Below, piece after piece: positions 6,693 to 33,013 of a stretch of 41,558 bases of DNA (the stretch's first letter is position 1; each line of letters starts with the position of its first letter). This stretch comes from a virus. Position numbers and translations under genes: made by a program. The notes under the pieces were generated by a model. It did no database searches, was not told the DNA's origin, and saw nothing but the letters and a program-made list of their open reading frames with translations. The stretch is taken from the IMG/VR virus record IMGVR_UViG_3300010401_000051, positions 1 to 41,558 of that record. One strand, 5' to 3'.

Positions 6693-6766
6693 TGGTTGCG
6701 AGCCGGGGAGTCGAACCCCGCTCAGAACGGCTTATGAGGCCGACCGGATCGCCGGATCTGCTCGCG
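6693..6766 (-). tRNA. Initiator-type tRNA-Met (CAT anticodon), D arm short
   Basis: The minus strand folds as a 74-nt tRNA with encoded CCA. Acceptor CGCGAGC pairs with GCTCGCA, leaving a C1-A72 mismatch, the hallmark of bacterial initiator tRNA. The anticodon loop is CTCATAA (CAT). The T arm is CGGGG-TTCGACT-CCCCG. The anticodon stem is TCGGC/GCCGT with an end U-U mismatch, so the three stacked G-C pairs next to the loop are present as GGC/GCC rather than GGG/CCC. The D arm is about 3-4 nt shorter than normal; the best pairing (GATC/GGTC) leaves little spacer. It sits exactly where the two transcription units converge. It could be functional, decayed, or an attachment-site remnant. Confidence 0.75.
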
Positions 6767-32273: not shown

Positions 32274-32681
32274 CTAGGCGTTGGCGTCGGTCAACGTGTA
32301 CCCGGTGATCGTGATCGCCTGGTTGATCGCGACGACGTTGTTGTCGAGCGTGAGATCGCCGCCGCCGCCCGTGATCGTGACGGTGCCCTGCTCGTGGCAG
32401 GTCGTCACGGTGGAGTCGTAGATCCGGTAGTGGCCGATCGTCCCGGCCGCGTCAGCGGCGACGTCCTGCCACGTCCCGCTCTTCGCCTTCGTTCCGCCCG
32501 ACGCGCTCGCCATCCAGTCGGACGGGAGGTTCAACGTGGCGCAAACGGTCCCGGAGTTGGCCGTCGCGCAGTCGGCGGGAGGCGCCCCGGTCCGGAGCAG
32601 CATGACCGGGGAGGTCCCGATCTGGGTCTCGGTCGCGTCGAGCCGGGCGTTGCGGACCGCCACGGATAACTGGAGCGCCAT
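32274..32681 (-). CDS. Conserved phage virion protein, 135 aa
   Basis: Sequence style AVRNARLDATETQIGTSPVM then PSDWMASASGGTKAKSGTWQ and HYRIYDSTVTTCHEQGTVTI is that of a small beta protein commonly encoded beside phage tail and fibre genes, with a C-terminal Gly/Asn-rich beta strand set (GGDLTLDNNVVAINQ). ATG at 32681 follows the tRNA-like gene. Exact virion role unknown. Confidence 0.65.
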   Translation of the reverse strand: MALQLSVAVRNARLDATETQIGTSPVMLLRTGAPPADCATANSGTVCATLNLPSDWMASASGGTKAKSGTWQDVAADAAGTIGHYRIYDSTVTTCHEQGTVTITGGGGDLTLDNNVVAINQAITITGYTLTDANA

Positions 32682-32704: not shown

Positions 32705-33013
32705 CTACGGGCTTGAGATGGCGCGGGAGGAAGGATTCACACCCTCAACCTCCTGGCCGACCTTGGACTCTTGCGAGACCAAGGGAGCCGGGCGCTCTCG
32801 TAGTTGAGCTACCCCCGCGTTCGTTGGAGCCGGTGGAACTGTAGCGCGCGCGAGCTTCCAAGTCGAAGACGGTCTCGTGCAGCGACAGACCGTGGTGATC
32901 GGCGGCCCGTACGCCCCGAGGCGGCGCGCGCATCGCGGTTGTCCGGAGTCGTTCAGGAAGTGGACCCCGAACTCGTTGCCGCAGCCGGTACAGGGCTCGT
33001 CGTTCGGCGTCAC
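32705..33013 (-). CDS. Cys-rich small protein overlapping a tRNA-like gene, 102 aa
   Basis: The GTG at 33013 overlaps the previous stop (GTGA). The N-terminus has PCTGCGNEFGVHFLNDSGQP with a C-x-x-C and a later C, then YGPPITTVCRC, typical of small phage zinc proteins. From about residue 65 the frame crosses the tRNA-like gene (32719-32818) and runs to TAG at 32705. The natural C-terminus may therefore be shorter, or the end is decayed. The N-terminal part is believable; the C-terminal third is doubtful. Confidence 0.45.
   Translation of the reverse strand: MTPNDEPCTGCGNEFGVHFLNDSGQPRCARRLGAYGPPITTVCRCTRPSSTWKLARATVPPAPTNAGVAQLRERPAPLVSQESKVGQEVEGVNPSSRAISSP
32719..32818 (-). tRNA. tRNA-like gene with oversized anticodon arm, 100 nt
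   Basis: The minus strand has a full tRNA frame: acceptor GCGGGGG with CTCCCGC, G discriminator and encoded CCA, D arm GCTC-AACTACGA-GAGC, T arm GAGGG-TGTGAAT-CCTTC, variable AGGTT. Between flanking CCCGG and CCAGG lie 31 nt where seven are expected. These fold into one hairpin: CCGGC/GTCGG, a TCC bulge, CTTGG/CCAAG, a T-T mismatch, CTC/GAG and a GCAA tetraloop. No single standard anticodon is exposed; CCC would be the reading if 24 nt were removed. It could be an intron-bearing tRNA, a non-decoding tRNA mimic or a decayed gene. Confidence 0.65.

Follow-up and report, generated by a model that had tools for sequence, protein, structure and literature searches.

A phage tRNA-like gene with a covarying hairpin in the anticodon-arm position is probably a non-decoding tRNA mimic

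The usual explanations for phage tRNAs are codon supply or survival of anticodon nucleases. What, then, is a tRNA-like gene that sits among the structural genes of a phage and carries a long hairpin where its anticodon arm should be? The question is raised by a gene on the minus strand of IMG/VR record IMGVR_UViG_3300010401_000051, the whole of which (41,558 bases, 67% GC) was analysed and is called the window here. A first-pass annotation had delimited this gene exactly, giving no strand, and had proposed an intron-bearing tRNA, a non-decoding tRNA mimic or a processing signal. Sequence comparison indicates that the gene probably encodes a non-decoding tRNA mimic, which host tRNA processing would release and which belongs to a small family of tRNA-like RNAs in phages; that it does not decode and is kept up by selection is well supported.

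Read 5' to 3', the gene consists of GCGGGGG, TA, GCTC-AACTACGA-GAGC, G, a 41-nt arm (CCCGGCUCCCUUGGUCUCGCAAGAGUCCAAGGUCGGCCAGG), AGGUU, GAGGG-UGUGAAU-CCUUC, CUCCCGC and GCCA (Table 1). As annotated, the acceptor, D and T arms and the encoded CCA are intact, with 7/7 acceptor pairs (one G.U), 4/4 D pairs and 5/5 T pairs (one G.U), and a long hairpin capped by a GCAA loop stands in for the anticodon arm. The 41-nt arm begins with a 7-position outer stem, CCCGGCU/GGCCAGG, which contains one C.A mismatch, and continues through CCUUGG/CCAAGG and a single U.U mismatch to a CUC-GCAA-GAG apex. The C.A mismatch, the T-loop UGUGAAU and a D-loop without G18G19 are features beyond those first noticed.

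Table 1. Parts of the tRNA-like gene, in positions of the window
Feature	Positions	Strand	Basis or remark
Whole tRNA-like gene, 100 nt	32719..32818	-	5' end at 32818, 3' GCCA ends at 32719; RF00005 and family model R1 (see text)
Acceptor 5' strand, GCGGGGG	32812..32818	-	pairs with 32723-32729, 7/7
Acceptor 3' strand, CUCCCGC	32723..32729	-	5/7 acceptor pairs doubly changed (compensatory) in the family
Discriminator G73 and encoded CCA	32719..32722	-	from the sequence
D arm, GCUC-AACUACGA-GAGC, D-loop without G18G19	32794..32809	-	same in 5/5 members, but this is the search pattern
Extended hairpin in the anticodon-arm position	32752..32792	-	fold energy, outer-stem covariation at 6/7 pairs, apex common with homologue L430b
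T arm, GAGGG-UGUGAAU-CCUUC, with U54-G55	32730..32746	-	G55 in 5/5 members though the T arm lies outside the search pattern

The Rfam tRNA model RF00005 recognizes the gene as tRNA-like (cloverleaf), with 38.3 bits against a gathering score of 29 (E = 2.6e-8 for the whole record). A default whole-window Rfam scan misses it, ARAGORN makes no call whether introns are allowed or not, and no match to a tmRNA was found in the window by Rfam or ARAGORN. Where a decoding tRNA has a 5-bp anticodon stem and a 7-nt loop with U33 and a purine at 37, the gene has its 41-nt hairpin, and where the decoding elbow brings G18G19 together with T54-Psi55-C56, it has the D-loop AACUACGA and a T-loop, UGUGAAU, that departs from UUCRANU. 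Folded by energy, a check that had been proposed along with the covariance model, the 41-nt arm reaches -22.1 kcal/mol, a stability equalled by 8 of 2000 shuffles; the unconstrained minimum-energy fold of the gene is 4 kcal/mol better than the cloverleaf. Stable hairpins are common in the window (67% GC), 2.5% of all its 31-mers being as stable as the 31-nt inner hairpin, so the case against chance is made by the tRNA match and the homologues and not by energy. A chance hairpin, suspected from the 2.5% figure, was ruled out by the covariation described below.

The gene lies among the minus-strand late genes of a tailed phage, which include those for terminase, portal, head closure, a virion structural protein (phrog_3758), major head protein, tape measure and a pectate-lyase-like protein as well as tail genes. 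It stands alone between co-directional late genes, is preceded by small genes, and is located ~40 nt upstream of the phrog_3758 gene (32274-32681). An open frame of 102 aa (32705-33013, minus strand) with a Cys-rich start spans it; this frame has a GTG start at 33013 and a GTGA overlap with the preceding gene. Its codon-position GC bias, an indicator of coding periodicity, fades out at the tRNA-like gene, before the tRNA part, so the tRNA-like region is not simply coding. Neither a sigma-70-like promoter nor a terminator was found around the gene, and no tRNA occurs at the corresponding site in 88 related loci searched via the neighbouring structural and capsid genes. The idea that solitary tRNA-like genes form an attachment site beside an integrase was abandoned, as ten nearby long proteins that were tested are not integrases.

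Other tRNA genes or pieces of them occur in the window and in related phages. A lone initiator-like tRNA with a CAU anticodon, C1.A72 and a normal T-loop occupies positions 6693-6766 (minus strand) of the window, and is called by ARAGORN and missed by the Rfam searches. Related phages carry a tRNA-Cys piece with a decayed 5' end, possibly an attachment site (L091, ~1501-1560), and a 62-nt tRNA in which the D arm is nearly absent (L096, ~1501-1562). An 84-nt tRNA-like gene in a relative (L089) looked similar to the window gene and reads as a class II tRNA.

Homologues were sought in IMG/VR with the unusual D arm TAGCTCAACTACNAGAGC as an exact query, which identified nine loci. Three of these (L431, L435 and L437) have no tRNA-like structure around the match. 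Two tRNA-like genes, L430a and L430b, lie in tandem in L430 with a 1-nt spacer; L429 has one, inside a tRNA array carried by a 322-kb phage; one gene is common to L432, L434 and L436; and L433 has one with the D-loop AACTACTA and a normal Lys loop. The anticodon arm is replaced in all five distinct genes with the D-loop AACTACGA, the window gene included. L430b has the same acceptor (GCGGG, Gly-like), T-loop and CUC-GCAA-GAG apex as the window gene, with U as discriminator in L430b and G in the window, and its arm is one 10-bp hairpin with a tetraloop. The L432 gene is a weaker member, with a T stem of 3/5 pairs, a weak hairpin and no full CCA. Genomic contexts differ within the family: a tRNA array with HNH genes in L429, metabolic genes in L430 and structural genes in the window. 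Within L430 1781-4793, the tandem pair occurs just upstream of genes like those for ribose-phosphate pyrophosphokinase and nicotinamide phosphoribosyltransferase (NAMPT), which presumably resemble an NAD-restoring anti-defence pair. IMG/VR searches with a 28-mer of the gene, with the hairpin alone and with a T-arm/acceptor pattern gave no matches, blastn against GenBank phages gave no homologue of the whole gene, and no members were found in isolates or plasmids. Five distinct members were found overall.

A covariance model (R1) trained on L430b, L429 and L432 only, with the window gene and L430a left out, scored the window gene at 78.6 bits (E = 1.3e-20) and L430a at 74.2 bits. The best non-member in 0.85 Mb of tRNA-rich phage loci, with some 270 other tRNA matches, was the L433 gene at 60.6 bits. 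The window gene also has the D-loop, U54-G55, variable loop AGGUU and covarying 7-bp outer stem that characterize the hairpin family. In the alignment of the five members, which was fitted to the covariance model and thus favours its own structure, 93.9% of pair cells are paired vs 74.3% in shuffled alignments and double changes occur at 13/23 pairs vs 5.7, with none of 500 shuffles equal on either measure. Sliding the pair partners by 1-3 columns abolishes the signal, and a three-sequence MAFFT alignment, not fitted to the model, gives the same result (10/23 pairs, 0/500 shuffles). The window gene and L430b are not independent here, as most of the body is common to both. Compensatory double changes affect six of the seven pairs of the outer hairpin stem, and such changes in homologues are what the first-pass annotation had proposed to look for. 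Positions 32/38 and 33/37 are paired in four of the five members (the window gene, L430b, L430a and L429), so no 7-nt anticodon loop forms or can be restored.

The elbow of these genes is also unusual. In the family, a D-loop without G18G19 always occurs together with G55. The non-proteinogenic tRNA-Gly of staphylococci has a T-loop with GUGC instead of GTPsiC, which resembles the G53-U54-G55-U56 of the window. Among 499 distinct tRNA-like genes from 344 viral loci and the window, the D-loop GG is kept in 0/21 phage tRNAs with G55 vs 453/470 with U55 (Fisher 7e-27, a value that overstates independence because phage tRNAs share ancestry and the G55 genes come from 14 loci). Base 56 tracks base 19, such that D-loop AG occurs with T-loop UGC, AC with UGG and AU with UGA; 16 of the 21 genes fit this rule vs 9.8 when shuffled, and 0/5000 shuffles reach 16. 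Genes with AACUACGA also fit, as C18-G55 with G19 facing C or U56, except for L432 (A56). These changes, first read as decay, were found to be compensated, and that reading was dropped. They suggest an exchange of G18.U55 for A18.G55 with compensation at 19-56, the pairing geometry being a prediction from sequence. No description of a systematic exchange of this kind was found in the open-access PMC literature, which yielded nothing relevant on A18-G55 elbows or insert-bearing phage tRNAs.

G55 is present in 0/144 tRNAs from cellular loci. Viral loci with the G55 elbow include L469 (G091:42500-61500), L429, L107, L167, L191, L201, L403, L408, L418 and L474 (5957-6033). In the L469 stretch, from a 120-kb phage, most tRNAs in the set combine the exchanged elbow with normal anticodons, and the exchanged elbow alone therefore does not exclude decoding. 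The exchanged elbow also occurs in isolated phages, in a gene of Brevundimonas phages Kikimora and Gurke that is annotated as tRNA-Met.

Because its relatives in unrelated phages carry matching compensating mutations, we interpret the window gene as a mimic and not as a broken gene, and homologue covariation thus supports one of the readings first offered. RNase P, the 3' processing enzymes and many tRNA-binding proteins recognise their substrates by the acceptor/T stack, GCCA and D stem, all of which the gene retains. The gene would be transcribed within the late structural operon and its RNA excised by host RNase P and 3' processing, through the acceptor/T stack and GCCA. The product may be a stable circulating RNA, accepted by host tRNA-binding proteins and unusable by the ribosome since it would have no anticodon loop. 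With the hairpin and G55 in place, tRNA enzymes or nucleases would lack their anticodon and elbow targets. Our leading guess, offered tentatively, is that the mimic acts as bait, a decoy that draws in host tRNA enzymes or defence nucleases that cut tRNA, given the kept tRNA-processing parts, the lost decoding, the staphylococcal tRNA-Gly precedent and the NAD-type neighbours in L430. More speculatively still, the family might be an undescribed class of phage non-coding RNA, with a covarying hairpin for an anticodon arm and a rebuilt A/C18-G55 elbow, that would tie up or misdirect the tRNA-cutting defence enzymes of the host, offering them neither an anticodon to cut nor an elbow to recognise. 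Codon supply cannot explain a non-decoding phage tRNA-like gene with covarying structure across unrelated phages, and a non-translational role of phage tRNA-like genes becomes directly testable.

There are precedents for tRNA-like genes leaving translation. The staphylococcal non-proteinogenic tRNA-Gly genes, whose products are peptidoglycan bridge donors, carry UU or CU where G18G19 would be, together with a T-stem that is weak for EF-Tu (PMC4052509). They share with the window gene the replaced G18G19 and a place outside translation, but are bacterial and have a normal anticodon arm, whereas the window gene belongs to a phage and has a long hairpin. The Bacillus cereus pseudo-tRNA tRNA-Other likewise lies outside translation, in which it is inactive, and may belong to a larger regulatory RNA (PMC3399842); unlike the window gene it keeps a Trp anticodon, is not phage-borne and has no hairpin substituted for the arm. 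Phage tRNAs resistant to anticodon nucleases are phage-encoded with an altered anticodon arm, the changes being thought to evade host tRNases (PMC10264068). In contrast to the window gene they still decode, and the changes described are point changes in the 7-nt loop only.

The main rival, which we consider unlikely, is a processing or punctuation element. The tRNA-like fold would mark the late mRNA for cleavage by RNase P and 3' nucleases, and the cuts would separate the upstream small genes from the 32274-32681 gene and set transcript ends, like plant mitochondrial t-elements. The solitary position of the gene between co-directional late genes just ahead of the phrog_3758 gene is consistent with this, as are the 1-nt spacer of the L430 tandem pair and the retention of the acceptor/T stack and GCCA needed by RNase P when the decoding parts are gone. 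However, cleavage alone needs no conserved covarying 7-bp stem, GCAA apex or rebuilt elbow, and family members occur among tRNA array, metabolic and structural genes alike. The tRNA-like domain of tmRNA and the plant mitochondrial t-elements combine an acceptor with a T arm and lack the anticodon arm, whereas the window gene keeps its D stem, has a hairpin at the anticodon position and has no Rfam tmRNA match.

Decay of a phage tRNA (its body nearest the Asn or Gly type) that gained a palindromic insert and lost its function is strongly disfavoured. The off-consensus D-loop and T-loop, the C.A mismatch and the rejection by ARAGORN would suit a decayed gene, and other phages of the same group do have truncated or minimal tRNAs, but homologues in other phages show the same D-loop, G55 and arm replacement along with compensatory changes, which upholds the doubt about decay voiced at the outset. 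In simulations of decay from two canonical ancestors, at least 20/21 pairs were kept and all four elbow bases lost in 0/20,000 runs at each of six divergences for either ancestor, a result that is indicative only, as the four bases were picked after the sequence was seen; the homologues are therefore the stronger argument.

It is very improbable that the gene is an intron-bearing tRNA made fit for decoding by splicing a 24-nt hairpin from its anticodon loop: one deletion does restore a fair anticodon arm (p = 0.02), intron-like phage tRNAs exist, and a hand-chosen cut after U33 gives the anticodon GUC with G73, called tRNA-Asp(gtc) by ARAGORN, but alternative cuts give GUC, CUC and CCC and specify no anticodon, the would-be loop positions are paired in L430b, L430a and L429 as in the window, L430b has no intron room and no spliceable remainder, and the insert is much too short for a group I/II intron. 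Archaeal and eukaryotic intron-containing pre-tRNAs also have extra sequence at the anticodon position, but the window gene has no bulge-helix-bulge on inspection (no 4-bp helix with 3-nt bulges) and its homologues have paired loop positions. An Asp tRNA with a 24-nt intron had been our first reading, and was dropped on the paired loop positions in L430b.

Phage contigs contain many tRNA-like genes that are mostly uncalled by standard tRNA finders. The D and T arms are 46-76 nt apart (normally ~26) in the tRNA-like genes that we sought by pattern in IMG/VR and GTDB genomes; the counts given here are among the matches listed, with good acceptor and T stems (the cellular scan also required CCA), and are not frequencies. 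Among those matches, a canonical anticodon arm can be recovered by a single contiguous deletion in 100/109 cellular genes (mostly archaeal) vs 77/157 viral genes, and 58/157 viral vs 5/109 cellular genes are clearly not restorable in this way. ARAGORN overlaps 9 of these 58 viral genes among the matches listed. Tested in this way, tRNA-like genes from which no anticodon can be recovered are common among phage contigs.

Most of the 58 non-restorable viral genes among the matches listed (L098-L217, L337-L428) lie away from other tRNAs. Recurrent inserts of 39-50 nt were also seen in the 5' strand of the anticodon stem (L099, L105, L112, L126, L141, L156 and L173; also L198, L205 and L414). Many of them consist of a hairpin followed by ACAGCAA, and in the first seven loci (L099-L173) a canonical anticodon arm reappears once they are removed; they resemble small introns of a new type. 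A different insert is common to L366, L400, L379, L179 and L101, built around CTCA-GGTGAAGGRCC-AAAYGC, with flanking stems that apparently covary and no plain anticodon loop.
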